A DNA stretch of 41,182 nucleotides from Bathymodiolus brooksi methanotrophic gill symbiont (GCA_020996635.1 JAJJBE010000040.1:1-41182); one strand, 5' to 3'. Counted from the first letter of the stretch, positions 5,147 to 24,345 are shown. Notes: generated from the letters alone by a model not told the origin. Program-made: numbers and translations.

Positions 5147-5148
5147 TT

Positions 5149-5679
5149 TTATTGATTCTCCCAGCTTTGCATAATTGTTTGTAATTCTTGCCACGTTTGT
5201 TCAGTAACAACTCCGACATGCCGAAAACGTATAATGCCCTGCGCATCTAATAGATAAGTTTCTGGTGCACCATAAACGCCTAAATCTAAACCTAACATGC
5301 CAGATTCATCATAGATATTAAACTGATAAGGGTTACCTAATTCAACAAGCCATTTTGTGGCTGCCGCTCGATTATCTTTATAATTTAAACCAATAATCGC
5401 AATTTTATTTTGCTGAGCAATGCGTAATAATTGATTATGCTCCTTCCGACAAGAAGGACACCAAGTTGCCCATACATTAACTAAAACTGGCTTACCAACA
5501 AGATCAGCCATGGTAAGTTTTCGTTCTGGTGCTAATAAGGACTCTACTTTAAAAGCAGGAAATGATTTATCAATCAGTGCTGACGGCAGTTCGCGAGGAT
5601 CAATACTCAGGCCTTTCCATAAAAATAATATTAAAACAGCAAACAAAGCTAAGGGTGCAAAAAGTAATAACCTAGGCAT
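5149..5679 (-). CDS. ccmG: Thiol:disulfide interchange protein CcmG/DsbE
   Basis: A membrane-anchored periplasmic thioredoxin-like reductant for apocytochrome c. The ATG at 5679 has AAGGAG upstream and overlaps the ccmF stop by 8 bp, giving 176 aa. An N-terminal anchor (residues about 3-21) precedes a thioredoxin fold with WATWCPSCRKE (Cys74, Cys77) and the cis-proline segment GVYGAPETYLLD (Pro139), both diagnostic of DsbE. A longer form from an ATG at 5727 would add 16 hydrophilic residues before the anchor and lacks support. Confidence 0.94.
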   Translation of the reverse strand: MPRLLLFAPLALFAVLILFLWKGLSIDPRELPSALIDKSFPAFKVESLLAPERKLTMADLVGKPVLVNVWATWCPSCRKEHNQLLRIAQQNKIAIIGLNYKDNRAAATKWLVELGNPYQFNIYDESGMLGLDLGVYGAPETYLLDAQGIIRFRHVGVVTEQTWQELQTIMQSWENQ

Positions 5680-7633
5680 GTGCAACTCCTTGTTTTTCAC
5701 TTTTATTTTGACGGTATCGTCTATCAAAAACAGTTAATATGCCGCCCAATGCCATTAGTAATCCACCTAACCATAACCAGCGTACATAAGGTTTGTAATG
5801 CACTCTTACCGCCCATGCGCCATCAGCAAGTGGCTCACCTAAAGCAACATATAAATCACGAAATAAACCTGGATCAATAGATGCTTCTGTCATCATTGAT
5901 TTCTTAACATTATAACGACGTTTTTCAGGATGTAAGGTGACGATAGAAGCGCCATCTAATGAAATTTCTATGGTTGCTTGATCAGCCGTATAGTTAGCCC
6001 CTTTTACCGGTTTTGTTCCTAGAAACTTAAACTGATAGTCTGCCAATTCAACTGTCTCACCCGGCGCTAGTCGCATATCACGCTCTTCACTATAAACAGA
6101 GACTAAGGTAATACCTATTGCGGTAACAGCAACACCGATATGCGCTAGCATCATTCCATAATAGCTGGGTGATAGTTGCTTTAATTTTTCAGTAATAGAG
6201 CTAGAAGTGCGAAACTTGCCTTTAAATTCTTTAGCAACCGTGGTGATAATCCACATGCTTAAGCTAATACCAATAAACACTCTGAAATTAAAACCATCAC
6301 CGTATAAAAATGGAAAAATAACGCCTGCTAGCAAACTTATTATTGCAGGTAGCATAAGCTGTTTTTTTACATTTTCCATTTTGGTATTTCGCCAGCGTGC
6401 TGCAGAAGAAAGCCCTAAACAAATAACCATCAGGCCCATAATGGGTACAAATAAGGCATTAAAATACGGAGGCCCAACAGATATTTTTCCTGCACCTAAG
6501 GCATCTATTAATAAAGGATAAAGCGTACCTAATAAAACAGTTACCGCCATGACCATTAAAAAGACATTATTAATCAGTAATAACATTTCACGAGAAAGCC
6601 AAGCAAAGCTCGATTCACTTTTTACATTAGGGGCTTTAAATGCGTACAAGGTTAAAGAGCCACCAATCGTTAAAACAAGTAATACCAAAATGAAGAAGCC
6701 GCGTTCTGGATCACTAGCAAAAGCATGAACTGACGTTAGTACGCCTGAACGCACTAAAAAAGTACCTAATAAACTTAATGAAAAAGCAAAGATAGCCAGT
6801 AATAAAGTCCAGCTTTTAAAGACACCACGTTTTTCTGTTACTGCTAAGGAGTGCATTAAAGCCGTACCGACTAACCAAGGCATCAAAGAGGCATTTTCTA
6901 CAGGGTCCCAAAACCACCAGCCACCCCAGCCTAATTCATAATAAGCCCACCAACTACCTAATGTAATTCCCGCGCCTAAAAAGGCCCAAGCAATATTTGT
7001 CCAAGGACGTGACCAACGCGCCCATGCTGCATCTAATCGACCCGATAATAAAGCGGAAATAGCAAAAGCAAAGGCAACAGAAAATCCCACATAGCCCATA
7101 TAAAGTAATGGAGGATGTACGATTAAACCAAAATCTTGTAATAACGGGTTTAAATCAGCCCCATCCATTGGGTATCGCGGTAAGTATCGTAAAAAAGGGC
7201 TAGATGTCCAAAGTAAAAAGGAAGTAAACCCTGTCGCAATAATGCCCATCACACCTAAAACACGCGCCAGCATATCAAGAGGCAATCCTTTACTAAATAA
7301 ACTAACCGCTAAGGTCCAGCCACTTAAAATTAACGCCCATAATAATAAAGAGCCTTCATGCCCCCCCCAAACCGCACTCAGTTTAAATTGCATGGGTAAT
7401 TGACTATTGGAATGATTAGCCACGTATTGCACGGAAAAATCATCAACTGAAAATGCATAGCCTAAGCAGATAAAACTAATCAGCATAAATGTAAACTGTG
7501 CTTTGGCTAAAGGCTTCGCATATTGCATCCATAAGGTCTTTAATGTCGCAGCGCCATATAAAGGAACCGTCGCTAAAATAATCGAAAAACCTAGCGCTAA
7601 AATTAACGCAAACTCACCTAACTCAGGGATCAT
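5672..7633 (-). CDS. ccmF: Heme lyase subunit CcmF
   Basis: A 653-aa polytopic inner-membrane protein, the catalytic core of holocytochrome c synthase in System I. The tryptophan-rich WWD domain is complete ([19 protein letters not shown]). The four histidine contexts known for the family are visible: [37 protein letters not shown] and [12 protein letters not shown]. Many hydrophobic helices span the length, with a periplasmic loop (about 510-600) before the last helix. It overlaps ccmE by 4 bp (ATGA) and ccmG by 8 bp, so the genes are translationally coupled. Length is normal for the family. Confidence 0.97.
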
Positions 7634-8067
7634 TTTATCGCCTCTTGTTTTTTCTTCATGGTTTCTGCAATTTCAGGTGGCATATAATTTTCATCATGTT
7701 TTGCTAATACTTCAATTGCTTGGAAAACGCCCTGCGCATCCATTTTTCCTTGTGCAATGATTCCTTGCCCTTCGCGAAATAAATCTGGCAAAATCCCGGT
7801 AAACACTACATTCACTGTTTTTTCATAATCTGTTAATGCAAAGCTAACACGCAATGAATCCGTTGCTCTTTTTACACTGCCATCAACCACCATGCCGCCA
7901 ACACGAATTCGTGTGCCCACAGGCGCTTCACCATTAGCGATTTGGTTAGCTGAATAAAATAAATTAATATTTTGATTTAAGGAGTACATAACCAAACCCA
8001 CAATCAAGCTAGTTCCTAATACTATCGATAAAATAATGATTAAACGTTTTTGTCTTTTAGGTGTCAT
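7630..8067 (-). CDS. ccmE: Periplasmic heme chaperone CcmE
   Basis: A 145-aa protein that binds heme covalently and carries it to CcmF. One N-terminal anchor (residues 8-29) is followed by the OB-fold periplasmic domain ([21 protein letters not shown]) and the conserved C-terminal heme site [12 protein letters not shown]. His124 would be the heme-bonding residue and Tyr128 the axial ligand, so it is the common His-type rather than the Cys-type CcmE. It overlaps ccmD and ccmF by 4 bp each. Confidence 0.96.
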
Positions 8068-8246
8068 GATGCGTTTTCTTCTCTTCTTAATTGACGTTTT
8101 GCTTTCATAAAAAATGCACGCTTCAGTAAAATGACTGAACTTACATTATAAATAAAGATTGCTAAAGCCATGCCATAACTCAACCAGACATAAAGGCCGT
8201 GTTTACCCATCTGTAAAAATTCGCTAAATGAAGCAAAATCACCCAT
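8064..8246 (-). CDS. ccmD: Heme exporter protein CcmD
   Basis: A 60-aa single-pass membrane protein that helps release holo-CcmE from the CcmABC complex. The ATG at 8246 has AAGGAAAAC upstream. An in-frame upstream start at 8309 would begin inside the stem-loop and is unlikely. The family pattern is present: [19 protein letters not shown], one membrane helix, then a basic tail (KAKRQLRRE). It overlaps ccmE by 4 bp. Confidence 0.9.
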
Positions 8247-8270
8247 TTTTGTTTTCCTTTCTAAATTAAA

Positions 8271-8301
8271 ACTCCCCAAGTACATTAAAGACAAGGGGAG
8301 T
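8271..8301 (-). promoter_or_regulatory. Stem-loop between ccmC and ccmD
   Basis: ACTCCCC (8271-8277) pairs perfectly with GGGGAGT (8295-8301). On the minus strand the stem is followed by TTTTAATTT and then the ccmD ribosome-binding site. It could attenuate transcription or mark an mRNA processing point between ccmC and the coupled ccmD-I genes. The long 17-nt loop and broken T-run make full termination unlikely. Confidence 0.55.
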
Positions 8302-8358
8302 GAAGTCAAAGCCCTGCGTAAAACTGACTTTAAGTAAAAAATATTACTAAGTCTGAAA

Positions 8359-9108
8359 TTATAACGACTTAATCAACGATTGTACCCAGCTAGTTTTCAT
8401 TTCTCTCTGTAAAACCTCAAGCCGTGCACGATGCATTAAAATAACAGAAAAGAAACAATAAAAGCCTAGCACCATAATGAGTAGTGGAATCCACATTTCT
8501 GGCGGCATAGCGGGCTTTTCTGTGATGGTGAACGTAGCAGGTTGATGCAGCGTATTCCACCACTCAACCGAATATTTAATAATGGGAATATTCACTAAAC
8601 CAACTAAAGATAATACCGCAGCGGCTTTATCTGCACTTTGGGTATTTTCAAACGCCCCCCGCAATGCAATCACGCCCACATATAAAAATAATAAAACTAA
8701 CATAGAAGTTAATCTAGCATCCCAAACCCACCAAGCACCCCAGGTTGGTTTACCCCAAATGGCTCCCGTTGCTAATGACATCACAGCAATCGATGCGCCA
8801 AAGGCCGCACAAGATTGCGCTATGACATGAGCCAATTTCATTTTCCAAATTAAACCAATAGCTCCTGCAATCGCCATCAACATATAACAGGACTGCGCTA
8901 AGATGGATGCTGGAACATGTACATAAATAATCCGAAAACTATTACCTTGTTGATAATCAGCTGGCGCAAAAACCAGCCCCCAAATACTACCTGTTAGCAA
9001 TAAAATAATAGCAGCCGCTGTAAACCAAGGTAATAACTTGCCACTAATCTCATAAAACCAACGAGGTGAAGCTAATCGATAAAACCATTGCGGTAATTTA
9101 ATACTCAT
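8359..9108 (-). CDS. ccmC: Heme exporter/heme-handling protein CcmC
   Basis: A 249-aa six-helix inner-membrane protein that loads heme onto CcmE. The WWD motif is complete (WGAWWVWDARLTS, around residue 123). The two heme-ligand histidines expected for the family are His64 (YVHVP) and His188 (NTLHQP). It is the first ccm gene here: ccmA and ccmB, which usually precede it, are absent, and a 14-heme cytochrome gene lies 95 bp upstream with no terminator between them. That spacing suggests co-transcription with the cytochrome operon. Confidence 0.96.
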   Translation of the reverse strand: MSIKLPQWFYRLASPRWFYEISGKLLPWFTAAAIILLLTGSIWGLVFAPADYQQGNSFRIIYVHVPASILAQSCYMLMAIAGAIGLIWKMKLAHVIAQSCAAFGASIAVMSLATGAIWGKPTWGAWWVWDARLTSMLVLLFLYVGVIALRGAFENTQSADKAAAVLSLVGLVNIPIIKYSVEWWNTLHQPATFTITEKPAMPPEMWIPLLIMVLGFYCFFSVILMHRARLEVLQREMKTSWVQSLIKSL

Positions 9109-9203: not shown

Positions 9204-11870
9204 TTACTTTAAATAATCCACGCCAATATCTCGTGCCTTATCTTTATGGTGGTAATACTTATATTTTGATAAGGCCTCAATACCATGACAATCAACACAA
9301 AATGTATCTTTTACGCCCTTATGGCGTAAAAAACTATTAATCACATTACCTTCAATATTTTCCTGTTTATTAAAATTTAGCACCTTACTTTTGCTCTCTT
9401 TCAAAAAGGCTTTCGGTTCCCATGTATGCGGTTCATGGCATGTCATACAGGCAATCACGCCTTTCTCATGGATAGTCTCATTTTTTGCGCCAATAACTGG
9501 CATAACAGTTTCATCAGAGCTTAAAATCATATCTTGATAAGGATGCCCATAATCAACAATTTCTTTCTCTTTACCTATGCCTTTTTTCTGATGGCAGTTT
9601 AAACATAGTTCATCACGCTTTAAATGCGGTGCGGTATCATCACGTTCTTGCTTATCTAGCCCTATCACAGAACTTAAAAAAGGCAGTTCAGCACTGCCTT
9701 TATGCAGTGTATGGCACGCGCCACAAGCACCTGAGTGTAAGGGACTTTCTTCTTGTTGGTTTTCCGATTCTTTTACCGTCACACGTAAATCATGATCTGT
9801 ACCCACTACTTTCTGCATACCCTCATGACAGTTCTCACATAATTGTCCATTACGGTGCTCTTCATGTAATACCGGTGTATTAGGTTTCCCAGCATGCACG
9901 GAATGACAACTTAGACAGCCAATTTTTTTAATTTCATTACCTGCAATTTTAACGGGCTCATCCATTTCTATATTCATTGGATGAATGCCCTTTTTCTTAG
10001 CCTCTTTATCGTCTTTTGCATGCTGCCTTTGATGACAATCAGCACATAAAGTTTCTGCTTGTTTAATTTTATCAGGGAATAATTCTGTCCCCACAGTGCC
10101 ATTATGTACTTGGTGACAGCTCTGGCACTGTACCGACTTAACCTTTTGTCCTCGAATTTCAACAGGCTCTTCCATCTCAACATCGACAGGATGTACGCCG
10201 GCTTTACGTGCTGCTTTGGCATCTTTAGGGGCTTGTCGTTGATGACAACTTGCACAAAGTTTCCCTGCGTCATCTGTTAAAGTTAATAAATTATCTGTTT
10301 TCCCTTGATGTATTTGGTGGCAGGACTGACAAACGAGTGCATCATCCACACCTAACGCAGCACCATTATTCAATAATAATTTTGGTAGTCCTTTTTGTAA
10401 GTATGGATCAGCCGTTTCTAAATGCTGTACTTTTTTAGTTTTGGGTTTATGCATTTTCACCCCTAAAGGATGATTAATTCCAAACTGCTTACTATTTTCT
10501 CTACCAGAAGATTTTGCATTTTTTTCATGGCAAGCTTCACATTGCTCACTGCCATAATCAGCACCCCGTAACCATGCATTATGGTTTTCTTTATACAAAC
10601 TTTGTGGGGTTTCATTATCATTGTGAGGGGTATGACAGCTAGCACAATTTAAATCCTGCTTATCTGTATGTGGATAAACTTCTGGCATTTCATCTTCACG
10701 CGGCAAGGCATCATAACGCGCCTGTTTTTTATCTGCCGCATCATACACAGTTGGGTGCTGTACCGCATGAGGGATTGCTTGCCTAGAATCTAAAACAGCA
10801 CCATGATGACAACTAACACACATATCTAATGCCGCAACGGGTAAAACAGCTTGTTCATCCTTAACACTTTCTTGGCTGACTTGCTCTGCACATGTGAAAT
10901 GACACATCACACAATTTTTACGTGAGATCTCTGCTATTTTATCTGGCTTATTTGTTAATAATTGATAGCTTAAAGCTAACTTAGTTAATTGCTGTGTTGT
11001 TGAATCCAACACATACAAATAACCAGATGAGTCATACTGTAATGCAACCGGGGTTTTAAAGTTAAAGGCTTCGCCTGCTGCATTTCTCAATAAACCTAAA
11101 AACCGTCCTTGCAGATAAATACTAATATTGCCCAAATAAGCATCACTAACATACTGAAAGCCTAGTTCATCAAAGCTATTTCCATTAGGTCGGTAAAAAT
11201 TTTCTACCGAAAACCGCCCTGTCTGCGAATAATATCGTCCACTGCGGTCAAATACTTGAATACGTGCATTCAGTACATCGACTACATTTAAATAGCTATC
11301 TTTATCTTCGGCTACCTGGAAGGGGTATTGAAATTGGCCATTCATTTCACCACGCTCACCGATACAACGTACTTGTTTGCCCGATGTAATATCTAAATAA
11401 CAAACCCTATGCCAACGTCTATCGCTATAAATTAAGTAATTTTCATTTGCCAATAAGGCAACAGGTTCTGGTAATAAACTCTCTTTCTCAGGCGCAGTTA
11501 AACTAATATTTTTTAACCACTTTCCTTGCAAAGAAAGCTGAATGATTTGGTGACGTACTGGGTCTGCTATATAGAGTTGCTGCCCTTGAACAGCTAAACC
11601 CATTGCTTTAGTAAAATCATGACCTAGGGATTTTTCTGATATTTCGCTTAGTTTTTTCCCTTGCGCTGAAAAAATAACAACGCGTGAATTCATACCATCT
11701 AAAACATACACTAAACCTGCTGAATCAACGGCCAAAGCAGTTGCTTGGTTAAATTCGTCGGCCAAGATAGTGCTTATTTCTGCAACAGGAATTTGCTCTT
11801 CTGCGACAACCAGCTTTAAAAAAATAACTTGCAGCACTAGACATATAACAATTAAGGCATAGCGTATCAT
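9204..11870 (-). CDS. NHL beta-propeller / 14-heme c-type cytochrome fusion
   Basis: An 888-aa secreted electron carrier. A signal peptide (residues 1-23) precedes NHL-type propeller repeats (about 30-305; e.g. TALAVDSAGLVYVLDGMNSR and PVALQYDSSGYLYVLDS). Fourteen CxxCH heme motifs then run from CVMCH (320) to CVDCH near residue 860, many in the doubled-CXXCH style where CHQIH or CHTLH follows a motif. Two adjacent modules of about 69 residues are near copies (from about 538 and 607), pointing to heme-array growth by duplication. It overlaps the triheme gene upstream by 4 bp (ATGA). NHL-cytochrome fusions are known in porin-cytochrome loci. Here it could be the outermost electron-transfer protein, which is inference. 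No lipobox is evident. Confidence 0.9.
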   Translation of the reverse strand: MIRYALIVICLVLQVIFLKLVVAEEQIPVAEISTILADEFNQATALAVDSAGLVYVLDGMNSRVVIFSAQGKKLSEISEKSLGHDFTKAMGLAVQGQQLYIADPVRHQIIQLSLQGKWLKNISLTAPEKESLLPEPVALLANENYLIYSDRRWHRVCYLDITSGKQVRCIGERGEMNGQFQYPFQVAEDKDSYLNVVDVLNARIQVFDRSGRYYSQTGRFSVENFYRPNGNSFDELGFQYVSDAYLGNISIYLQGRFLGLLRNAAGEAFNFKTPVALQYDSSGYLYVLDSTTQQLTKLALSYQLLTNKPDKIAEISRKNCVMCHFTCAEQVSQESVKDEQAVLPVAALDMCVSCHHGAVLDSRQAIPHAVQHPTVYDAADKKQARYDALPREDEMPEVYPHTDKQDLNCASCHTPHNDNETPQSLYKENHNAWLRGADYGSEQCEACHEKNAKSSGRENSKQFGINHPLGVKMHKPKTKKVQHLETADPYLQKGLPKLLLNNGAALGVDDALVCQSCHQIHQGKTDNLLTLTDDAGKLCASCHQRQAPKDAKAARKAGVHPVDVEMEEPVEIRGQKVKSVQCQSCHQVHNGTVGTELFPDKIKQAETLCADCHQRQHAKDDKEAKKKGIHPMNIEMDEPVKIAGNEIKKIGCLSCHSVHAGKPNTPVLHEEHRNGQLCENCHEGMQKVVGTDHDLRVTVKESENQQEESPLHSGACGACHTLHKGSAELPFLSSVIGLDKQERDDTAPHLKRDELCLNCHQKKGIGKEKEIVDYGHPYQDMILSSDETVMPVIGAKNETIHEKGVIACMTCHEPHTWEPKAFLKESKSKVLNFNKQENIEGNVINSFLRHKGVKDTFCVDCHGIEALSKYKYYHHKDKARDIGVDYLK
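9975..10260 (-). repeat. Tandem heme module duplicated inside the 14-heme cytochrome
   Basis: Two consecutive coding blocks give CASCHQRQAPKDAKAARKAG and CADCHQRQHAKDDKEAKKKG. Each continues with HPVDVEMEEPVEI or HPMNIEMDEPVKI and a second CxxCH (CQSCHQVH, CLSCHSVH). The unit is about 207 bp (69 codons) and carries two hemes. The copies have diverged at the DNA level, so the duplication is not recent. Confidence 0.75.
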
Positions 11871-12658
11871 TTTAAAAGTCTCATAATACGAAGTCGGCTC
11901 TCTTCATCCTTATAGCGTGCAAAAAATTGTGCAATGATATTATTGTAAATTTTATTAGCTTGATAAGTATTTGCACCAAGCTTAGATAAATCTAAAAACT
12001 GCTCATCTTTATCATGGCAGGCACTACATTCTGGACCTTTTTCCTCTAAAGGCGCATGAATCAAGGCACGTCGCTCTATTTTTTCAGCTTCCACGCCGCC
12101 CTCCCATATACGCTTTGTTGCCTGTGCAAATTGGCTATTTTTACGCAAAACAGCGGCTTCTCCTTTATAAAATGGCGTTATCTTATAATAAGAATGTAAG
12201 GCCTTTACTCGCTCCAGAGGTTTTTCCTCTGTACTTTGCACTTGTCTAAATAATTTAGCTTTTCCCTTTAGGCTTAATCCATCTCGTACATCCTCCCATT
12301 GATAGCTAAGTACTTTATCTTTAGGACGAAAATGACAGCTTTCACAAGCAATAAATTGTGTATGCATATTCATAAAGGTACGAGTGCGCTCACTTTTAGT
12401 ATGCGGTGGCGACAAATGGCAAGTCGTACAAGTGTTATATTCTAACGATGCATTCAATTGGCCTCGTTTATGAAAAGGAGGCATATCAAGTTTTTCACGC
12501 ACCTCTAAGTCTTTATGTGCTGCTAATTTTTCTTTAGACTCTGCTAATTGCCGCTCACTTAAAACGGTATTGTTAATTTCTTGCAAATACAAACTTTCTG
12601 CTGTGACATGACAACTCATCGCACTTAATAAGCCGATAATAAATATACGATAAACCAT
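11867..12658 (-). CDS. Triheme c-type cytochrome, periplasmic
   Basis: A 263-aa protein with a signal peptide (MVYRIFIIGLLSAMSCHVTA) and three heme motifs: CTTCH, CESCH and CSACH. The first two sit close together; the third lies past a charged, heme-free middle region. The start is the ATG at 12658, one base after the stop of the upstream cytochrome, with GAGG just before it. An in-frame ATG at 12676 would overlap the upstream gene and put charged residues before the leader. It overlaps the NHL cytochrome by 4 bp. I do not recognise a named family. Its position suggests a periplasmic relay between the anchored octaheme cytochrome and the outer proteins, which is inference. Confidence 0.85.
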   Translation of the reverse strand: MVYRIFIIGLLSAMSCHVTAESLYLQEINNTVLSERQLAESKEKLAAHKDLEVREKLDMPPFHKRGQLNASLEYNTCTTCHLSPPHTKSERTRTFMNMHTQFIACESCHFRPKDKVLSYQWEDVRDGLSLKGKAKLFRQVQSTEEKPLERVKALHSYYKITPFYKGEAAVLRKNSQFAQATKRIWEGGVEAEKIERRALIHAPLEEKGPECSACHDKDEQFLDLSKLGANTYQANKIYNNIIAQFFARYKDEESRLRIMRLLK

Positions 12659-12659
12659 C

Positions 12660-13991
12660 TTAAGCCTCAGAATCATCAGATTTTTTAGGTGTCTTTTCTA
12701 CTTCAGTTGTTGCAGCATCTTGGTTAATAGTAGCAGGCGTTGTTGCCGCTATTTCTGGTGCTGTGACTGCTGCTTTCGGCACACGCGATTTTCTTGCCGC
12801 TGCTTTCGCTCTAGCCTTTTTAGGTTTTCTGCCGATCATGACACGCTCAAACCGATCTCCCCCTAAAATAGCAATAATCTTTTTATCCGTTCTATAAAAA
12901 AACCACCAAATTAAACTACCTATTGCAAAAACAATACCTGCTATCATTAAAGGCCATGCACTACGAAACCAATTTGACTGCCACAGGTCTGTATCAGTTA
13001 GAGGCTTTTCCATGCTACTTAAGCCCAATAAGGATAAACTGTGCATATCGGTCATGGTAAAACCTTCATTACCCGGTTTTTTGCTATAAGCATGGCAGTT
13101 AGACTGGCCACAACTCTCCGCTAAATTATCAGGGTGTGAGGCTGATTTTTCATCAGTATAAGCACGAATTTCATGTTTCCATCCATCAGGAGCATGACAA
13201 TCAATACACGATGCACCAAAATCTGAATTGGCATCAATTAATCGGCCGTGTAATGTTTTTGTATAACTTTCTGAACTCTGTATAAAGCGCTCACTAGGCG
13301 GATGTTTTTCTAAGGTTTTAACATCCTCTTGCTTAACATCCCGCATGGCATCAATATCACCATGACATTGAATACAAAGTTGATTATTCTCAATATTATT
13401 CCAGCGCCTGCCAACAAAACGTCTTAAGATATGTCCACCAAATTGCCCCATCCACGCCTTACCTTGATGACAATTTCCACATTCCGTTTCTGCATGGTCA
13501 AATGCTTCTTTAAATTTCTCTAACTGCATCTCAGCAATATAGGCGGTATTACTATGACATCGCCGACAAGAAGGGTCTTGCTCTGTTTCTAGCTCTTCCA
13601 AACGGTTACCACCCGTTAGACCTTTATACCAACCATCAGCATGGACAGATTTATCCATTTCTTCATGAATAACATCATGACTATACTTAACACCTTCTGA
13701 TGGTTCTTCGATATGACAGGATGCTCCACAATCAACTTCAGTATTTTCGACTTTATGCGGATAATCAATGACTTTTCGATGACAATCTTTACACGGCACA
13801 CTACCATGTAAAGAGCTTGCGTAATGGTCTCCATCAATCGTTGCACTGCGAAAAACGCCATTCTCATCGATAAAATTTAAACCTTCATAAGCATGGCAAG
13901 ATAAACAGCCATCAGGATCACTATAACGAGGGTTTGCTTCAGCACTATAATTAAGCAACAACAAAAACAACAGTAAAAAAGAACGCACCAT
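12660..13991 (-). CDS. Membrane-anchored octaheme c-type cytochrome with basic C-terminal tail
   Basis: A 443-aa protein with a signal peptide, then a periplasmic heme domain. Six motifs are canonical (CLSCH, CKDCH, CRRCH, CGNCH, CIQCH, CIDCH). One is CX3CH (CGASCH) and one CX4CH (CGQSNCH), so eight hemes if the unusual sites are filled. A single membrane helix near the C-terminus (AWPLMIAGIVFAIGSLIWWF) is followed by a cytoplasmic tail of about 75 residues rich in Lys/Arg, Ala and Pro. Three in-frame ATGs (14003, 14000, 13991) compete; 13991 is best spaced from AGGA. It follows the NapH-like gene directly, as NapC/NrfH-type cytochromes follow their quinol dehydrogenases, so it probably takes electrons from that protein. 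Confidence 0.87.
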   Translation of the reverse strand: MVRSFLLLFLLLLNYSAEANPRYSDPDGCLSCHAYEGLNFIDENGVFRSATIDGDHYASSLHGSVPCKDCHRKVIDYPHKVENTEVDCGASCHIEEPSEGVKYSHDVIHEEMDKSVHADGWYKGLTGGNRLEELETEQDPSCRRCHSNTAYIAEMQLEKFKEAFDHAETECGNCHQGKAWMGQFGGHILRRFVGRRWNNIENNQLCIQCHGDIDAMRDVKQEDVKTLEKHPPSERFIQSSESYTKTLHGRLIDANSDFGASCIDCHAPDGWKHEIRAYTDEKSASHPDNLAESCGQSNCHAYSKKPGNEGFTMTDMHSLSLLGLSSMEKPLTDTDLWQSNWFRSAWPLMIAGIVFAIGSLIWWFFYRTDKKIIAILGGDRFERVMIGRKPKKARAKAAARKSRVPKAAVTAPEIAATTPATINQDAATTEVEKTPKKSDDSEA

Positions 13992-14006
13992 GACAATCAT
14001 CATCCT

Positions 14007-15047
14007 TTACAAAAATGAGCCGACAATTATGACTGATATAACTGTCAATAAAACCATTGCATTAAAAATACTTACTCCACTTATTTGAGGTAATACTCTA
14101 CCTGCCTCCTCTTTAACTGGATGAATATGAATTGCCTGCCAATCAGGTAAAGGGAAAATTTCAGTATTCTTTTTAATACGCTTAGGGCTATTATGTTTAT
14201 GCTTAGGGGGAGCCGTCCATGCTAAAGCATTCCAGTCACAGACATCGACACATTCATGACACGACATGCAAGACATTTGATCAACTACCGCAATTTTATC
14301 GACCATTTTAATGGCGCCACACATGCAATTTCGGGCGCAAATATTACAGCCAGTACAACGCTCTTTTGCCACACGAATACGGTGCGCAAAAGGCAGTCTT
14401 GCACCAATACGATTAACAATGCTATCTGCTGCACCTATTGGGCATAGAAACTGACAGTAAGCACGCCCTTTACTAGCAAAAACGCCCAATAACAATAATA
14501 AGGCGAGGTTAACTAAGCCCACGCTAGAAACAAGATAAATCATGCCGCGATATTCCCCACTCATCGCTTCTATTAATCGAGGGATAGTAATAAAGTTACA
14601 TAAACTACAAGCACTAATTCCTAATGCCGGCATAGCCACTAAATAAAAACCAAAATATCCATAACGAATCTGTATTTGAGGTAAAGAGCGAAATTCAATT
14701 TTCCAGCGATCATTTAACATACGTGAACTCAGTTCTGCCAAACCGCCTACTGGACATAAATAACCACACCAAATACGCCCAAAAAATAAAGTCGTTATTA
14801 AAATAATCGCAAAGGCCATGACACCAATAGTGGCTGAATTCACATGTACAAAAAAATCATCCCATGTCATTCCAGGAAAATACAAATAAAAGCGACGCAT
14901 ACAAAGCTGGCCACATAAATCATCGTTACCTACCAATTGTGGTAAAAAAGCTAAAGGCCCTAATAAACTCAGGCTTGCTAAAAGAATCATGCCATACCTA
15001 AATTTCTGTACTTTAGGAATCGCTTTTAAGTTTTGAATAACACGCAT
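14007..15047 (-). CDS. NapH-like polyferredoxin membrane protein (putative quinol dehydrogenase)
   Basis: A 346-aa inner-membrane protein of the NapH/NosR/CcoG-like 4Fe-4S family. About five membrane helices are visible. Two CxxxCP motifs characteristic of NapH lie at helix ends (WCGYLCPVGG, YCQFLCPIGA). They are followed by a two-cluster ferredoxin domain (CTGCNICARNC and CMSCHECVDVC) and a last C-terminal helix. Such proteins oxidise menaquinol or ubiquinol and pass electrons to periplasmic cytochromes. The ATG at 15047 is preferred; a TTG at 15059 is possible. It lies between hexaheme and octaheme cytochrome genes and has no napA, nosZ or napG beside it, so its partner is most likely the cytochrome array. 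Confidence 0.9.
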   Translation of the reverse strand: MRVIQNLKAIPKVQKFRYGMILLASLSLLGPLAFLPQLVGNDDLCGQLCMRRFYLYFPGMTWDDFFVHVNSATIGVMAFAIILITTLFFGRIWCGYLCPVGGLAELSSRMLNDRWKIEFRSLPQIQIRYGYFGFYLVAMPALGISACSLCNFITIPRLIEAMSGEYRGMIYLVSSVGLVNLALLLLLGVFASKGRAYCQFLCPIGAADSIVNRIGARLPFAHRIRVAKERCTGCNICARNCMCGAIKMVDKIAVVDQMSCMSCHECVDVCDWNALAWTAPPKHKHNSPKRIKKNTEIFPLPDWQAIHIHPVKEEAGRVLPQISGVSIFNAMVLLTVISVIIVGSFL

Positions 15048-15062
15048 ACTACTTCTCAATTA

Positions 15063-15938
15063 TTAATCTTTAAAATCATGACAAACAAGACAAAGCTGCC
15101 CATCTTTTGCAGGAAGCCTTAATAAGGTTTCTTGAACTATCCGTTGATAAGAAAATGCCACATTCATATCATGCTGTTGATTAAACTCAGCAAGGCGGTC
15201 TAATTTGTCAGCTGTCACTACTGCTTTCCAAGGGTGGGGTTTATAATCCACGCCTTTTTCTAAGTCTTTTGTTTTCACTTGTTTACCAGCAGGGGTACTC
15301 GGGTCAATCACGCCATATTGGTGTGGACTATGGCAACTCACGCACACGACTTCTTGCTTATCACTTAATGGCACGATAATGCCTTGCTGTTGACTATTTT
15401 TTTCAATCAATTTCAGCATTTCGTCTTTTGCAGGTTTTACTTGATGCTCTACCGCATTAAAATGCGGATCTTTTAAATGACATCCTAAGCAAATAGTCGT
15501 TAAAGGTAAGCGTAATTTTGCATCTTTATGAGATTTTACTTTTTCTCGGTCGGGTACTTCCTCATGACAAAACTCACATTGTTTCTTCTTAATATTGCCG
15601 CTCTCATCTAACATCAGATGAATATTGTCACGCTGAACCTTTTTTTCATCATGACATCGATAACAAAAACCCGTAATTTTTCGATAGCCTCCGCCTACTA
15701 AAAAATCAGCTGATTCAGTATCCACTTCATCTAGCGGTGTCTTATCTATATCTTTTAGACCATGACACGTTGCACAAATTAATTCGCCTTGCTCACCTAG
15801 CTTAAATGCATCGGGGATTTCAATCGCATCAGAAGGCTCTATGCCAACAAGGTGATGCAGAGGGGGAAGTATCGGCGCATCACCTGCAAAAGCAGGCATT
15901 GCAAGTAAGACTAAAAATAAGTAGCGTAATAAGAGCAC
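15063..15938 (-). CDS. Hexaheme c-type cytochrome, periplasmic
   Basis: A 291-aa protein with six CxxCH motifs (CATCH, CYRCH, CEFCH, CLGCH, CVSCH, CLVCH) spread along the mature chain. I chose the GTG at 15938: it comes three bases after the upstream stop, has GGGA at good spacing, and starts a proper signal peptide (VLLLRYLFLVLLAMPAFAG). An ATG at 15980 in the same frame would overlap the upstream gene and place 14 polar residues before the leader. CHSPHQYG after the fifth motif is reminiscent of doubled-CXXCH cytochromes. No named family recognised. Confidence 0.86.
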   Translation of the reverse strand: MLLLRYLFLVLLAMPAFAGDAPILPPLHHLVGIEPSDAIEIPDAFKLGEQGELICATCHGLKDIDKTPLDEVDTESADFLVGGGYRKITGFCYRCHDEKKVQRDNIHLMLDESGNIKKKQCEFCHEEVPDREKVKSHKDAKLRLPLTTICLGCHLKDPHFNAVEHQVKPAKDEMLKLIEKNSQQQGIIVPLSDKQEVVCVSCHSPHQYGVIDPSTPAGKQVKTKDLEKGVDYKPHPWKAVVTADKLDRLAEFNQQHDMNVAFSYQRIVQETLLRLPAKDGQLCLVCHDFKD

Positions 15939-15940
15939 TT

Positions 15941-16924
15941 TTATAATCCCGTTTGCGCAGCCATGCCATGTACATGACATTCAACACAACTACCACTGGC
16001 TTGATGCACTCCGCTTAATCCATTGCCTGTTTGTAACTCAGATTCTTCCACAACTTCTTCACTGTCATGACAAGTCACACACAATTGAGCATAGTTATTT
16101 CCGGGTGTATCAATCGAAATAGGTACTGAGCGTAAACTATCTTTTAACAAGCTCATGCCTGCATCAGAGCGATCAACAATTAATTTTTCATTATGTGTGC
16201 CGTGCATTGCATGGCAATCACTACAAGCAACCGTTGTTTGATACTCATAAGCTTCGCGCAATCCAGTATAAGTCCTATTACCTTCTCCTAATCTCTTACC
16301 GTGCATATCGATATGCTCATAATTTATCGCCATCATCACCAAAGGATCACGCTTAAAGCGAACTTGTATTTCATAACCGGCTTGTTGATGATTTTTATTA
16401 TGGCAGCGTAAACAAAATTCAGAACCATTTCGATATGGTAAGTCGAGCGCACCTTTTAAATCGTAGTCTTTTAAATCAACCGCAGGCTCAAAATCACCAT
16501 CCATATCCGATGCGTAATGACAAGCTAAGCAGTCTTTATCATTTAGAATGCTATCTTCTTGCATTTTAAAATTATGATTCTTAACATCTTGCATCAACGG
16601 TTTTTTAGGTAGTAAACTTTCATTATGACAAAGCACACACTCTCGCTTAATTGTTGTGCCATTTTGTCCGTGACAACCGGCACAAGACGCATACCCTGTT
16701 TGCTGGACGATACCCTTAATTTTAGGCGCATTACCATGAATATTTCTTAGCACATGACAGCCGGAACACTCACTTAGCCCCCAAGCACTGCCATCTCCTC
16801 CATGATTTAGCGTTAATACTATTTGATTCTTTTCTAAAGAAACATCTCTTGCAAAGCTACTTTGCATAGCGAGGGCTAAACAAAGAAACATAAATAATTG
16901 TGCGATTTTTTTAATCATAATCAT
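15941..16924 (-). CDS. Octaheme c-type cytochrome, periplasmic
   Basis: A 327-aa protein with a signal peptide (MIMIKKIAQLFMFLCLALAM...SSFA) and eight CxxCH motifs: CSGCH, CAGCH, CVLCH, CLACH, CLRCH, CSDCH, CVTCH and CVECH. The start at 16924 overlaps the upstream stop as ATGA; an ATG at 16918 is nearly as good. Extra histidines (NHGGDG, NIHGNAP, MHGTHN) could be distal ligands. Length and heme count are similar to decaheme or octaheme periplasmic cytochromes of porin-cytochrome conduits, and the gene is two places after the porin. It is therefore a candidate for the cytochrome inside or beneath the barrel. This is inference; I see no diagnostic family motif. Confidence 0.87.
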   Translation of the reverse strand: MIMIKKIAQLFMFLCLALAMQSSFARDVSLEKNQIVLTLNHGGDGSAWGLSECSGCHVLRNIHGNAPKIKGIVQQTGYASCAGCHGQNGTTIKRECVLCHNESLLPKKPLMQDVKNHNFKMQEDSILNDKDCLACHYASDMDGDFEPAVDLKDYDLKGALDLPYRNGSEFCLRCHNKNHQQAGYEIQVRFKRDPLVMMAINYEHIDMHGKRLGEGNRTYTGLREAYEYQTTVACSDCHAMHGTHNEKLIVDRSDAGMSLLKDSLRSVPISIDTPGNNYAQLCVTCHDSEEVVEESELQTGNGLSGVHQASGSCVECHVHGMAAQTGL

Positions 16925-17511
16925 TGAGTGTGGCAATCTTTACAATAAAAACTATTATGACATTGGCTGCAATTAGCCGGCATCATGCGTGACTCCAATC
17001 CATGGCGGTTAACATAGCCTAAAGGGTGATAACCTGTCCCTAAGGTATCTCGGCTAAAATGGCAGTCGGTACAAAATTTACGATCTAAATGGCAGGTTTC
17101 ACAGATTTCAGTATCTTGTTTACTGTCTTCAGCATGATTCTGAATATACCCAGAATTATGATCTGCAGGCCAAATCTTTTTATTGTCATCATGACAAAGA
17201 TCGCAACGCCATGGCGCTCGCTTTTCATCGACATGACAATCATGACAAATACCCATTAATGGTTCATTAGCAATGGTATTTAATGGCTTACGCTTTGTTT
17301 CATCATGCTCATCATTTTTTTGAAAGGCATGACACAATAAACAACTATCTCCCTCTTCTTCCATGGTTTCATAATGTAATTTATGCGGGTAATAAATATC
17401 ACTCCGTTGAGCTCGCTCTTCCCACCATGTTTCTTGTAACGGCGGCAAGCCATCTGCAAAAGTAGAAGCAGAAAGAAATAGGCAGGCTATTAATAAAATT
17501 AATCGAAACAT
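16921..17511 (-). CDS. Heptaheme c-type cytochrome, small and heme-dense
   Basis: A 196-aa protein with a signal peptide (MFRLILLIACLFLSASTFA) and seven CxxCH motifs: CLLCH, CHDCH, CDLCH, CETCH, CTDCH, CSQCH and CKDCH. That is about one heme per 25 mature residues, a very high density, and the last motif ends two residues from the C-terminus. Its start codon shares a base with the porin stop (TAATG), so the pair is translationally coupled. That coupling suggests it is made in fixed ratio with the barrel and may plug it. Many Asp/Glu/His residues give an acidic surface. No named family recognised. Confidence 0.88.
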   Translation of the reverse strand: MFRLILLIACLFLSASTFADGLPPLQETWWEERAQRSDIYYPHKLHYETMEEEGDSCLLCHAFQKNDEHDETKRKPLNTIANEPLMGICHDCHVDEKRAPWRCDLCHDDNKKIWPADHNSGYIQNHAEDSKQDTEICETCHLDRKFCTDCHFSRDTLGTGYHPLGYVNRHGLESRMMPANCSQCHNSFYCKDCHTQ

Positions 17512-18785
17512 TATTTTGATCCCTTCGCCGTAAAATTATCAAAATACCACGTCATTTGTACACCACCTAAATACTCATCTTTTAAGCGAGAATTTACAAT
17601 ATAACTACCGGCTAAATCCATAAATAAACCTTTGATAATTTTGTAACGTAACTTTACTTCTGTTCCTGCTGCTTTGTTTTCTGCATACAAAGCACTGTTA
17701 TCTAATGAATATGCTAAATTAAGACTTAATAGCGCATTAGCTGATAATGAATATTCCGAGCCAAAATACAGGTTATAACTACTACTATCCCCAAATTCCA
17801 GCATGTCAAAATCAGCACTCAAGTTCCAATCACTAAAATATTGGTTGTTTACTCCCATATCAAAACCATAACCAATATCTTGATTAGCATTCCTTGCTGC
17901 TCTTTTTCCTGCCAAATGATAATGTAATGTCGGCGTTAAACTTTGATTAAAGCTAAGGCTTATTAAATCCTGTTTTCCGTAATAGTAACTGGTGTAAAAT
18001 TTTTCTTTAAACGTCGGATAATAAGACCTAGGCTCATACCTTGCATAATTAAGTTGTATCCGACTATATTCTGTAATATCTAATAAAAAGCCCGTAAATA
18101 TCTCTTCAAATGCGCCGCTTTCTATTTCTACTGTGGTCATAAAAGAAAGCTCATAAGCATGTAAATATTGATGTTTAAACTGCCCTGAAAATACATTGCC
18201 TAAACTTAATATTGATGATGTCTGTTGATTGTGTAACTGTTGAAAACTAACACGTAGCGCCCACGTATCAACAGGTAGAAAATTATTCTGCCAATTTACT
18301 TTTTGTAGACTATTAAATTCAGCACCATAAACCCAATCAGCCGTGACTGAATTCATATCTTCTTGGCGTATAGGTCGCCCGCCATAAACTTCAACCGTTA
18401 AGCCCTTTGTGGGTAGCTGATACCTTACTGTTGCTCCATCTAAACTGTAATACCCTAAACTATCTGCTCGTTGAAATCGGCCAGCTTTTATTTTAGTGTT
18501 TAGTTCAGCTAAATACTTTTCTATATAAAACTGAAAAATATCACCTTCAAGCCCTTCTTCTAAACTTTCTCTGGTTACAAAATCTAAAGCTACATTCCAA
18601 CTTTTATTATCAAATACTTCAAAACTCCCCCAAAGCTCACCAAATACACGAGTATCATCAACATAACGCGTATAACGATTATCAGCTTGTATTTTTGTCT
18701 TTAAACTACCACTCCAATTCCATGCAGCCTGCGCAGTTAATGGCAATAAAAAACAACTAAGAAGGATTAAATAAGCTAATTTCAT
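17511..18785 (-). CDS. Outer-membrane beta-barrel protein, putative porin of a porin-cytochrome conduit
   Basis: A 424-aa protein. The start is the ATG at 18785, which opens a signal peptide (MKLAYLILLSCFLLPLTAQA). An open stretch extending upstream to 18965 only overlaps the small gene. The mature chain is a series of amphipathic strands rich in Tyr, Phe and Trp (e.g. WNVALDFVTRESLEEG, IQLNYARYEPRSYYPTF, YNLYFGSEYSLSANALLSLNL) and finishes close to an aromatic-ending strand (GGVQMTWYFDNF). About 18-22 strands are likely. It carries no heme motif. It is coupled to a heptaheme gene and heads a cytochrome operon, which points to an MtrB/OmbB-like role although I see no MtrB signature. Confidence 0.82.
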   Translation of the reverse strand: MKLAYLILLSCFLLPLTAQAAWNWSGSLKTKIQADNRYTRYVDDTRVFGELWGSFEVFDNKSWNVALDFVTRESLEEGLEGDIFQFYIEKYLAELNTKIKAGRFQRADSLGYYSLDGATVRYQLPTKGLTVEVYGGRPIRQEDMNSVTADWVYGAEFNSLQKVNWQNNFLPVDTWALRVSFQQLHNQQTSSILSLGNVFSGQFKHQYLHAYELSFMTTVEIESGAFEEIFTGFLLDITEYSRIQLNYARYEPRSYYPTFKEKFYTSYYYGKQDLISLSFNQSLTPTLHYHLAGKRAARNANQDIGYGFDMGVNNQYFSDWNLSADFDMLEFGDSSSYNLYFGSEYSLSANALLSLNLAYSLDNSALYAENKAAGTEVKLRYKIIKGLFMDLAGSYIVNSRLKDEYLGGVQMTWYFDNFTAKGSK

Positions 18786-18793
18786 TAATATTG

Positions 18794-19051
18794 CTATTCG
18801 CTGTAAAAATCGTCGCCTTGGCGCTTTTTTATCATAGCCCAACCCACTAGCGATCCTAATGCAACCACGCAGCCACCACAAACCGCACATTTCCCTTGCT
18901 GAGGAATCGTACAATTTGAAGCTGTTAATAAATGCCCTGCCGCAATACCAGCACCAAACAACCAAGGTATACTTTGATTAAGCAAGCTATCAGCGTCTAA
19001 AGCCTCACTTCTTTGCTCATTTTCTTGTTGTAATTCACTTATTTTTTTCAT
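18794..19051 (-). CDS. Small Cys-rich membrane protein, unknown function
   Basis: An 85-aa protein with an acidic, helical N-terminus (MKKISELQQENEQRSEALDA), two hydrophobic segments (about 28-45 and 61-75) and between them four cysteines: Cys47, then C55-x2-C58-x2-C61 (KCAVCGGC). There is no signal peptide and no heme motif. AAAGG precedes the ATG, and the porin gene begins 8 bp after its stop, so it heads the cytochrome operon. The cysteines could bind a metal or Fe-S cluster, or form disulfides. I recognise no family. Confidence 0.7.
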   Translation of the reverse strand: MKKISELQQENEQRSEALDADSLLNQSIPWLFGAGIAAGHLLTASNCTIPQQGKCAVCGGCVVALGSLVGWAMIKKRQGDDFYSE

Positions 19052-19231: not shown

Positions 19232-21988
19232 CTATTTATCTGCTACAAAGTAAAAACCAGTTGCAGCTGCTTTGAATATCACATATCCATTCAACCCAGA
19301 CTGAATAGCGATAATATCAGAAGCTGGAACTTGCCCAACTTCTTCTACTGCCCAATCAATATAAGCAACATTGATAGCTGAAGTGTCTGTTTTACTACCT
19401 TGATAAGGTACTTTTAACAACACATCTCCACCAACCATTGTTCTAACTAGCTTACGTTTATCATCCTCTGCTCTAAAGTAAGTAACATCAGAACTTAAGT
19501 TACCTAAATTTTTCGCTTGAAGGACTTGCTTGGCAGCTTCAACACCTTTGTCATTTAATAAACCTAGCATAATTCTATAGCTAGGTAACACTTTAGTATT
19601 AATTGAAGTGTCTGCATCTGCAATAACAGCTAAACCACGTACTTTTTCATTGGTAGGGTTTGCCTTAAAAACAAGAGCATTACCACTTTGCAATCTAGCC
19701 GCAAGTTTTGCTTTATCTTCATCATTGAGTGCCACTTCAGCATATACTTCAGCATTGATTTTTATAGGTGCAAAGTAACCCAGTGCTTCAGCAACCGTAT
19801 TAATCCCTTTTTTCTGCAATAAAGTCATAAAAGGATCAACTTTAGTAGCAAATAAAATGTCTGATACATTCTCAGTCACTTTACCGTCAGCATCGACCTT
19901 CATATACTCTAAATCAAGGATAACAATACCTTCCTCGACTAAACGTCTATCAGGTAATGTAGTAACTTCTTTAGCATTCGCTTCACCTAATACACCATCT
20001 ACAGATAATAAAGAGCTAAATGAACCGTTTTGCTTTTTAGCATGACAGTCACCACATGGCATAGACTCAGGAGAAGGACGTGTGTTATGAGAAATAACAT
20101 ACTCATTAGATTCCGTCCAGACCATGACAGCATTAGGCGATGTATATCCTTTAGCTTTCAAGACTCCGTCGTAAGCCTTTTTCATTCCCACAAAACCTTC
20201 GTAATCTTCAGGGTCTGAATACCTCATGCTTCCATGACTAATTCTTGCTGAAACTCGTCCAAATTCCTGACCTGTTTGTGGATCAAAAATAATACCGAAT
20301 AAGCCGTCATCATCTTCACCTTTTTTGAAGATAGCATTCCGATCATTCTTAAATAATACATCACCCGTTACTGCATCTTTCCAGTAATAACGGTAACGTG
20401 GTTTATAAGGAATGATTTTTTGCTGACCATCTTCAGCTTGGCGGTAGCGATACAACATTGCATCATCAACACTTCCACGTTTATTTGTAATATGACAAGT
20501 CTGACAGCCAACTACATCTAAATGTGTTTGTGTAATTTTAGTTAGGGTGCCTGCTGTATAGCCAGCCATATCCCCATTACCTTTCCACAACTCAAGGTGA
20601 GCACCTAACATGCCATCTGTATGGCCTGATGGAACGACTTTATTAACCGCTTCATCATGACAATACTCACAAGACATCGCATTTGGCTCATAATCTAAGT
20701 CATTACGTACATCCATATCAGAATTTCCTTTAGGGAAATCATGATTTGCATCTAAATCTATTGGTGCCCCTAATGGTTTATAGTACTGCTTCGCATGGCA
20801 AGCATTACAGTTATCAATGGTTCTTGATTCGCCATTGTTATCTGTAAAAACTTTACCTTTATGTACATCATCTTTGTAATCATCAACAATCACACCCGTT
20901 GATTCAATTCCATCTTCAGTTTCTGGTGTCATAACAGCATCATCACCAAAACCATAAAAACCACGACGTGAATTACTGGTTCGATGACAAGCCATGCAGT
21001 TATCATTATCAGGAAAACGTAGCATAGGAATCACAACACGTTTTTCAGCATCAAATGCAGCAGCATTCCAATTTAAAATCGGCTTACCGTTCTCGTCTAA
21101 ATCTAAACCAACGCTGGCCTCCATTTCACCAGTCATGTGATTATGCACTGATTGCTCAGAGCGACTAAAAGACAGCATATTAACGCCATCTTTATTCTTC
21201 ATTCCTTCTATAATTGTTGATCCTGTTTCACGAAAATATCCTTCCTCCGCAAAATCACCACGTTGGCTACGAACCCAGCCACCAGGGCCACGTCGGTTAT
21301 CAGCAGGCTGGTCAATCAAACTTGCTTCGGCCACTGATAAATCAGCAAATTTAGCATGACATAACATACAGTCAGCTTCGACTACACCACTTTTCTTCCA
21401 ATCATGAGGAACAACTTTTGTTGTGCCACCTTCTTGTTTTACACGATCGTAATAATCGCCATCAAATTCTTTGATAGTAAATACATCTTTTTCATCGTAA
21501 CGAATACCATCACGATCTAGCTCAGCAAAACCGCCACCGGCATGACAGTTAGCACAATCTTTTACCCAACCAGCTGAACCCCAATCTCCAAACTCTGCTG
21601 CACTGGCATTATTCTTTTTAGCCAATACGATTGGGTTGCTTCCACCCATACAGGTGTAACCACCAAAATAACCCGGCGAAACCAAATGTGGTAGGCCACG
21701 TTTTTTACCATAATAGTCACCTACTTCATCACGACCCATTTCAAAATGATATGAGTGATTGATAGCATCATAATCATGACAACCACTGCCTTCGCAACTT
21801 TTTTTCGAGCTATATGGATTACCCGTATCCAAAACATTCAGCCCATCTTCATCGAGCATAGGTATCTTTGGGTGATCAACTAATTCATCAAAGACATTAG
21901 CTGCTGCATATACAGGCATTTGACTATTGAAAAAAAGAAAAATACTGAGACTTAGAAATTTTATTATGTTATTTGTTATTCGCCGCAT
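19232..21988 (-). CDS. Large octaheme c-type cytochrome with heme-free C-terminal domain
   Basis: A 918-aa secreted protein with a signal peptide (residues 1-30, ending VYAAA). The heme motifs are CX4CH (CEGSGCH, 65-71) and seven CxxCH (145, 207, 331, 394, 440, 495, 645). The last 270 residues have no heme and are predicted alpha/beta (e.g. VAEALGYFAPIKINAEVYAE). Long Gly/Asp-rich spacers between hemes suggest a large single domain rather than a compact nanowire unit. GGAG precedes the ATG. It is followed by stem-loops, so it is probably its own unit upstream of the porin operon. The size and layout are compatible with an extracellular terminal cytochrome or an octaheme oxidoreductase. I cannot name the family. 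Confidence 0.87.
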   Translation of the reverse strand: MRRITNNIIKFLSLSIFLFFNSQMPVYAAANVFDELVDHPKIPMLDEDGLNVLDTGNPYSSKKSCEGSGCHDYDAINHSYHFEMGRDEVGDYYGKKRGLPHLVSPGYFGGYTCMGGSNPIVLAKKNNASAAEFGDWGSAGWVKDCANCHAGGGFAELDRDGIRYDEKDVFTIKEFDGDYYDRVKQEGGTTKVVPHDWKKSGVVEADCMLCHAKFADLSVAEASLIDQPADNRRGPGGWVRSQRGDFAEEGYFRETGSTIIEGMKNKDGVNMLSFSRSEQSVHNHMTGEMEASVGLDLDENGKPILNWNAAAFDAEKRVVIPMLRFPDNDNCMACHRTSNSRRGFYGFGDDAVMTPETEDGIESTGVIVDDYKDDVHKGKVFTDNNGESRTIDNCNACHAKQYYKPLGAPIDLDANHDFPKGNSDMDVRNDLDYEPNAMSCEYCHDEAVNKVVPSGHTDGMLGAHLELWKGNGDMAGYTAGTLTKITQTHLDVVGCQTCHITNKRGSVDDAMLYRYRQAEDGQQKIIPYKPRYRYYWKDAVTGDVLFKNDRNAIFKKGEDDDGLFGIIFDPQTGQEFGRVSARISHGSMRYSDPEDYEGFVGMKKAYDGVLKAKGYTSPNAVMVWTESNEYVISHNTRPSPESMPCGDCHAKKQNGSFSSLLSVDGVLGEANAKEVTTLPDRRLVEEGIVILDLEYMKVDADGKVTENVSDILFATKVDPFMTLLQKKGINTVAEALGYFAPIKINAEVYAEVALNDEDKAKLAARLQSGNALVFKANPTNEKVRGLAVIADADTSINTKVLPSYRIMLGLLNDKGVEAAKQVLQAKNLGNLSSDVTYFRAEDDKRKLVRTMVGGDVLLKVPYQGSKTDTSAINVAYIDWAVEEVGQVPASDIIAIQSGLNGYVIFKAAATGFYFVADK

Positions 21989-22436
21989 CTGATAGGCTCC
22001 ATGACATGATTGATTTACATTGCTTATCTAAACAAGGCAGGAAGTATGCCATATAAAAAAACTTCTTAACAATCTGTATTTTTACATACAGTTCAATCAT
22101 TTACATCACGAATAATAACTAATATCGCCCTCTGTTAAATTTCAATTTTTAAGCTATATCCCTTTGCAGTATGTCATATCCCTTATTTTCACTTATTCCT
22201 ATCAATCACCCTAATAGACCAATAATAAGGTAATTAGCTTTAACTACCTAGCTTACAGCGCCTTCTAAAAAAATAATTAATATTCGGCATAAAAAATGCT
22301 TACCATAAATTAACAATTACGCTTATAGGTAAACCTCTATGCAGCACTGTACGAAATACTTTCATCAGTTACATACTTATTTATTAGCGACATTTAGCCC
22401 TCATTTACCAAACACATTTCGACAGGACTTAACTTT
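21989..22436. other. Divergent intergenic/promoter region
   Basis: This 448-bp AT-rich stretch lies between the minus-strand octaheme cytochrome and a plus-strand lipoprotein gene, so it should hold both promoters. It contains the inverted repeat at 22074-22091 and a GAAGT...ACTTC pair at 22041-22065. No convincing full sigma-70 pair, FNR box (TTGAT-N4-ATCAA) or small gene could be read. Confidence 0.6.
22074..22091. promoter_or_regulatory. Inverted repeat, possible operator upstream of the 918-aa cytochrome
   Basis: CTGTAT-TTTTAC-ATACAG is a perfect 6+6 dyad about 90 bp upstream of the cytochrome start, in a region that must hold its promoter. The spacing suits a dimeric transcription factor. 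The regulator is unknown. Confidence 0.4.
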
Positions 22437-24192: not shown

Positions 24193-24283
24193 AAGTATGT
24201 CTCTTTAAATTTTAAAAAATATGTTGGTTAAGCTTTACTCAATATTATTTTAGTTAACATCAAGGTTAAGCAGCAAACATAAA

Positions 24284-24320
24284 ATAACCACCTAATAACA
24301 TCTCGTTAATGGGTGGTTAT
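24284..24320 (-). promoter_or_regulatory. Stem-loop between oadA and oadB
   Basis: ATAACCACC (24284-24292) pairs with GGTGGTTAT (24312-24320). It lies in the 153-bp gap between oadA and oadB and lacks a T-run. It may stabilise or process the mRNA so that OadA and OadB are made in different amounts. Confidence 0.45.
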
Positions 24321-24345
24321 AAAGTACTGTAAATAAATAAGCTAT

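Follow-up and report, generated by a model that had tools for sequence, protein, structure and literature searches.

The closest described system is a putative operon of Methylococcus capsulatus (Bath), which Larsen and Karlsen delimited from MCA0424 onward and which has 11 genes, eight cytochromes, 58 CxxCH motifs and the β-barrel MCA0427 (PMC4831470). MCA0424-MCA0433 is part of copper-responding cluster 1, is repressed by copper and induced under copper starvation, and two of its products, MCA0424 and MCA0426, were found in the surface fraction; a role in extracellular electron transfer (EET) was proposed for it in 2016 (PMC4831470). Formate-dependent current and ferrihydrite reduction were reported for M. 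capsulatus in 2018 (PMC6281684). How aerobic methanotrophs export electrons when oxygen is lacking is a question that bears on climate. Here we describe a locus on the minus strand of a 41,182-nucleotide stretch from the Bathymodiolus brooksi methanotrophic gill symbiont (GCA_020996635.1 JAJJBE010000040.1:1-41182; hereafter the window), which encodes a β-barrel, multiheme cytochromes and a NapH-like membrane protein.

An initial annotation had read this locus as a candidate EET conduit matching no named one. The conduit is well supported, but the claim of novelty does not hold: as judged from sequence and gene order, the cluster is the Methyloprofundus-type version of the MCA0424-MCA0433 cluster, for which EET had already been proposed. 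Its operon structure, its heme sites and two natural fusions among relatives (NapH-like protein with octaheme, octaheme with diflavin reductase) are established at the level of sequence, together with a 22-strand model of the barrel. We consider it probable that the operon encodes a conduit across the envelope, in which an Fe-S/octaheme entry takes electrons from NAD(P)H and/or quinol and which leads from the inner membrane to the surface.

The locus is a ten-gene operon

All nine genes that had been annotated at 9204-19051 were present on the minus strand at the coordinates first given. The set was incomplete, since an upstream octaheme gene, G0, precedes it in most loci and is part of the operon, making a unit of ten genes:

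22037..22051, minus strand: putative sigma54-type promoter TGGCATACTTCCTGC, 63 bases 5' of the first gene
19232..21988, minus strand: G0, secreted octaheme cytochrome, 918 aa, 7 CXXCH + CX4CH, homologue of M. capsulatus MCA0424/MCA0426
18794..19051, minus strand: G1, 85-aa membrane hairpin with invariant Cys (CX7CX2CX2C), candidate Fe-S site
17511..18785, minus strand: G2, outer-membrane β-barrel, 424 aa, by AlphaFold2 model
16921..17511, minus strand: G3, small heptaheme cytochrome, 7 CXXCH, candidate in-barrel wire
15941..16924, minus strand: G4, octaheme cytochrome, 8 CXXCH, lipobox in relatives
15063..15980, minus strand: G5, secreted hexaheme cytochrome by CXXCH count, candidate periplasmic relay
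14007..15047, minus strand: G6, NapH-like membrane protein with 16 invariant Cys, 12 common to NapH and 4 extra
12660..14003, minus strand: G7, C-terminally membrane-anchored octaheme cytochrome with a cytosolic tail, by heme sites and hydropathy
11867..12676, minus strand: G8, secreted triheme protein by CXXCH count
9204..11870, minus strand: G9, NHL-repeat and 14-heme secreted protein, by domain match and CXXCH count

The heme numbers first assigned to the cytochromes (7, 8, 6, 8, 3 and 14) were borne out. CXXCH motifs number 7 in G3, 8 in G4, 6 in G5, 6 in G7, 3 in G8 and 14 in G9; the 447-aa G7 has a CX3CH and a CX4CH besides, giving eight heme sites, and the single CMSCH of G6 is a ferredoxin ligand. 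The genes lie close together. With refined ATG starts for G2 (18785), G4 (16924) and G6 (15047), the 1-4-bp start/stop overlaps noted earlier are 1 bp for G3/G2 and 4 bp for both G4/G3 and G9/G8.

The cluster is conserved at low identity and corresponds to that of M. capsulatus

The closest relatives of the window genome are Methyloprofundus metagenome-assembled genomes (MAGs) and pmoA was found in the organism's own genome, which identifies the host as a Methylococcales methanotroph. The lack of a pmoA match in relatives is no proof of a non-methanotroph, since the draft genome of M. capsulatus Texas gave no match either. Gene order was compared over 20 loci from related genomes and 49 named loci (labelled L below), most of them contigs from MAGs; the search that yielded the identities and counts started from the heptaheme and would miss copies without one. 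The conserved order runs octaheme, four-Cys hairpin, barrel, 7, 8, 6, NapH-like, 8, 3, NHL/14 heme. Other Methylococcales have this set of genes, in this order and with these heme counts, at ~25-60% protein identity, with the barrel dropping to about 25-30% among relatives, and the cluster is also kept in some other Gammaproteobacteria. Such recurrence at low identity places the operon far above chance. Homologues of G3 were found in 47 of 301 Methylococcales genomes and 15 of 50 genera (a sample of the order), and in 7 of the 369 genomes of a class sample, five of which lie outside Methylococcales, in different families. The heme number of G9 homologues is 14 for most Methylococcales, 12 for the majority of copies from elsewhere and 16-20 for some.

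M. capsulatus Texas stands in for Bath in the gene-order comparison. Its copy (L051), in which G0 is present twice, carries 7+7+7+8+6+6+3+14 = 58 CXXCH, matching exactly the published eleven-gene, eight-cytochrome, 58-heme operon, and the Methylococcus-type gene order, with the barrel and the series 7-8-6-NapH-8-3-14, was found. Consistent with this, the 2004 genome paper (PMC517821) lists, for the region MCA0421-0443, an undescribed Fe-S protein and a flavodoxin-domain gene, in agreement with the genes for the NapH-like protein and the octaheme-diflavin fusion.

A probable barrel-heptaheme pair at the outer membrane

AlphaFold2 modelled G2 as a barrel of 22 strands (pLDDT 86), and a large plug-less barrel was thereby found beside a multiheme partner whose gene overlaps its own. 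G2 gave no Pfam match over threshold and no NCBIfam match, including the MtrB/PioB family TIGR03509; by sequence it retrieved nothing from the PDB at E values up to 10, and MtrB was absent among its 50 best Foldseek matches. Ushers and OprD-like barrels were the sole kinds of fold match, and were not read as homologues because their root mean square deviations were high. A search of the organism's own genome for the MtrB family gave no match, a weak result given that control genomes gave none either.

All seven CXXCH motifs of G3 are invariant in 14 aligned sequences. In an Oligoflexia locus only the barrel-heptaheme pair is kept, with the genes still overlapping, at 28% identity, which supports a partnership of the two proteins. 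At that locus (L084:7739-10579), which may represent a distant conduit type, a multiheme cytochrome gene accompanies those for a 409-aa barrel and the overlapping heptaheme, and Fe-S and NrfD-like genes follow. Copies of G4 outside Methylococcales have a lipoprotein signal (lipobox), which none in Methylococcales has, with one possible exception (L053); because of this, G2-G3-G4 look like the trio of barrel, inner cytochrome and lipoprotein cytochrome found in known conduits. In some Methylococcales the G4 octaheme is tandemly doubled or tripled within one gene, giving 16 or 24 hemes (L046:4753-6753, L056:1972-3789, L055:4528-7479).

These comparisons bear on a different reading, a periplasmic multiheme system for respiration or detoxification that merely neighbours an unrelated porin and forms no conduit. 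The weak local matches to cytochromes of the nitrite- and tetrathionate-reductase type would fit it, as would a barrel without a conduit-family match; yet those matches all fall under the family cut-off, G0 homologues are surface-located, and the genes for barrel and heptaheme overlap and remain together as far away as Oligoflexia. We regard such a system as quite unlikely, and a conduit across the outer membrane as highly probable.

A probable surface octaheme and a putative sigma54-type promoter

The NHL 14-heme protein G9 had been assigned to the cell exterior. Its homologue went undetected in the M. capsulatus proteome that held surface MCA0424 and MCA0426, and the support for a surface position attaches instead to their homologue, the octaheme omitted at first; the outer end of the conduit is likely to be G0, not G9. 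A G0 sequence search of M. capsulatus Texas found the two cluster copies only, so that the 2004 genome paper (PMC517821) is the basis for linking G0 with MCA0421, the c553o paralogue. In the methanotrophic endosymbiont of Bathymodiolus puteoserpentis (L039/L020), the start of the cluster is kept while G0 spans only residues 356-918; no N-terminal part was detectable nearby, and decay or misassembly is possible.

Within 250 bp of G0, the motif [T/C]GG-N9-TGC occurs on the sense strand in 25 of 32 loci, compared with 7 of 32 on the reverse strand and a mean of 2.7 loci (maximum 9) in 300 dinucleotide shuffles. The M. capsulatus sigma54 site, as printed (TGGTTCGCATTTTGC), was found 117 bases before the first G0 in the Texas copy, and a site of this type is absent before most copies outside Methylococcales. 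The promoter thus looks conserved, and the operon is probably controlled by sigma54.

Regulation also bears on whether the cytochromes might serve assimilation, as a surface reductase driven by NAD(P)H that reduces extracellular Cu(II)/Fe(III) for uptake in copper or iron shortage, and not respiration. In M. capsulatus, copper starvation induces the cluster, which lies beside TonB genes and has a proposed Fur box (PMC4831470), and M. capsulatus does not grow on Fe(III) and gives very low currents (PMC6281684). More than 50 hemes would however be a big investment for assimilation, and upstream of the window operon no Fur-like box rose above shuffled background. An assimilatory role is in our view unlikely. 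Confidences in these alternatives overlap, because several of them are different uses of one conduit.

Fusions in relatives point to the inner-membrane entry

G6 conserves the two CX3CP motifs and the two 4Fe-4S Cys sets of NapH and scores below both NCBIfam NapH cut-offs (82 of 213 and 72 of 234 bits). Twelve of its 16 invariant Cys align with E. coli NapH. The other four (C45, C49, C147 and C150) do not; hydropathy places them on the periplasmic side, where they may ligate an additional cluster that faces the octaheme. In the G1 hairpin, all four Cys of CX7CX2CX2C are invariant among 22 aligned sequences. In six relatives (L073, L074, L078, L079, L082, L083), all lying outside the Methylococcales clade that was sampled, the NapH-like protein and the octaheme form one polypeptide, which upholds the earlier proposal that the two are coupled, and we think it very likely that together they form the entry.

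A second fusion concerns the electron donor. In some relatives the octaheme runs past its membrane anchor into a full reductase of the CysJ-type diflavin kind (Flavodoxin_1, FAD_binding_1, NAD_binding_1), namely in M. capsulatus and relatives (L032/L051), in Methylothermaceae (L027/L059) and in one further lineage (L071); several of these come from complete or near-complete single-contig genomes, and a limited literature search found no paper describing the fusion. With the hemes placed after a signal peptide and the anchor separating them from the fused flavoprotein, the latter must be cytosolic. The donor may therefore be NAD(P)H, which on balance we favor for at least the fused lineages; that it is the main donor in the window organism is a tentative suggestion that we rate below even.

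The label of a quinol dehydrogenase given to the locus was only inferred: quinol entry is possible, but the diflavin fusions suggest NAD(P)H as donor in no fewer than two families. A respiratory conduit fed purely by quinol, with G6 oxidizing quinol, the octaheme carrying electrons out and NAD(P)H uninvolved, would agree with the NapH-family match, with the known EET entry proteins CymA, CbcL and ImcH, which are quinol oxidases (PMC6295460), and with the absence of the diflavin domain from most copies, the window's included. It sits poorly with the fusion in two families and with the soluble-domain Fe-S ligands, all of which are on the predicted cytosolic side. Formate drove the electrochemical activity, which also counts against it, yet NADH from formate can feed quinone too. 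Taken together, we find an exclusively quinol-fed conduit doubtful. The same reductase could run in reverse, and uptake of surface electrons to reduce NAD(P)+ and so supply soluble methane monooxygenase was proposed for M. capsulatus in 2018 (PMC6281684); this path would be uphill without an energy source, outward current alone has been demonstrated, and we hold uptake to be very unlikely.

Proposed electron path

In the conduit that we favor, electrons from NAD(P)H, via a fused or free CysJ-type flavoprotein, and/or from quinol or ferredoxin would reach G6, and G1 may provide another Fe-S site at the entry. They would pass from G6 to the anchored octaheme G7, then to the periplasmic relays G5 and G8, and would cross the outer membrane through the barrel G2 with the heptaheme G3 inside or against it. 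The octaheme G4 would be the outer-membrane partner, and exit to the exterior would be through G0. A narrower version, which would be a new kind of EET entry and in which electrons pass from cytosolic NAD(P)H to the diflavin reductase, the NapH-like protein with its extra periplasmic four-Cys site, the covalently linked octaheme, the hitherto unclassified 22-strand barrel and then the surface while bypassing the quinone pool, is possible, at somewhat less than an even chance. The conduit probably serves to get rid of excess reductant, or to reduce metals outside the cell, when oxygen or copper runs low.

Several points weigh against this proposal. No known conduit porin matches the barrel, whose best PDB matches are unrelated barrels. 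The window's G7 ends in a short basic tail and has no diflavin part, and a free CysJ-like protein in the window genome, 43% identical to the fused domain, is not tied to the operon, as it is located elsewhere, beside glutamate synthase. An AlphaFold2 single-chain model of the NapH-octaheme fusion of L079 was unusable (pLDDT 49, pTM 0.26). In M. capsulatus, the mutant tested was in MCA0421, a neighbor of the cluster, and its current was lowered only partly (PMC6281684); we found no published deletion or purification of any cluster member, nor an experiment on the cluster itself.

The fusions offer a concrete and testable entry point, unlike the quinol oxidases CymA, CbcL and ImcH, and would explain a formate-driven current. 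The cluster is kept in many Methylococcales, and M. capsulatus is a genetic model host with published current assays.

Neighboring genes

Directly downstream on the same strand lie cytochrome c maturation genes (ccmC, E, F, G, H, I type; 3402-9108), and ccmC adjoins the cluster also in L016, L021 and L035. On the other side, oxaloacetate decarboxylase-type genes (23059-26100) adjoin G0, the β-subunit gene being a neighbor also in L016, L018 and L021. An Rnf-like set nearby (26608-37882; rnfB, two tandem rnfC, rnfD, rnfG and rnfE-like) is split by a gene for a 1664-aa pyruvate:ferredoxin oxidoreductase. At the contig end (713-2733), a histidine kinase is paired with a FixJ-type response regulator as a possible regulator. 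The search for RNA families gave no matches.

Comparison with known systems

M. capsulatus MCA0424-MCA0433 has two G0 genes and the octaheme-diflavin fusion, whereas in the window G0 is single and the fusion is absent. What appears to be new here comprises both octaheme fusions, the extra Cys of G6, the lipoprotein G4 outside Methylococcales and the conserved sigma54-type promoter.

With MtrCAB, MtoAB and PioAB the locus shares the logic of a barrel, an inner wire and an outer cytochrome. It differs in a barrel of 22 strands without an MtrB/PioB match, in a seven-heme partner where MtrA is a decaheme, and in having no CymA; the NCBIfam MtrA/DmsE decaheme family TIGR03508 gave only partial matches, far below cut-off. 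A Methylobacter cluster from a 2026 bioanode study is likewise a proposed EET conduit of Methylococcales; with a decaheme MtrA, an MtrB/PioB barrel and two monohemes, it is a different cluster by gene content (PMC13322032).

The likeness to NapGH lies in the CX3CP motifs and ferredoxin-type Cys sets of G6, and the difference in its four extra invariant Cys, its sub-cut-off scores and an octaheme partner in place of NapG. By gene layout, the Geobacter porin-cytochrome complexes OmbB-OmaB-OmcB and ExtABCD likewise have a barrel, a periplasmic multiheme and a lipoprotein multiheme as neighbors, for which the counterpart here is G2-G3-G4, with G4 a lipoprotein in relatives only; unlike in Geobacter, the inner-membrane entry and the surface octaheme are here within one operon.

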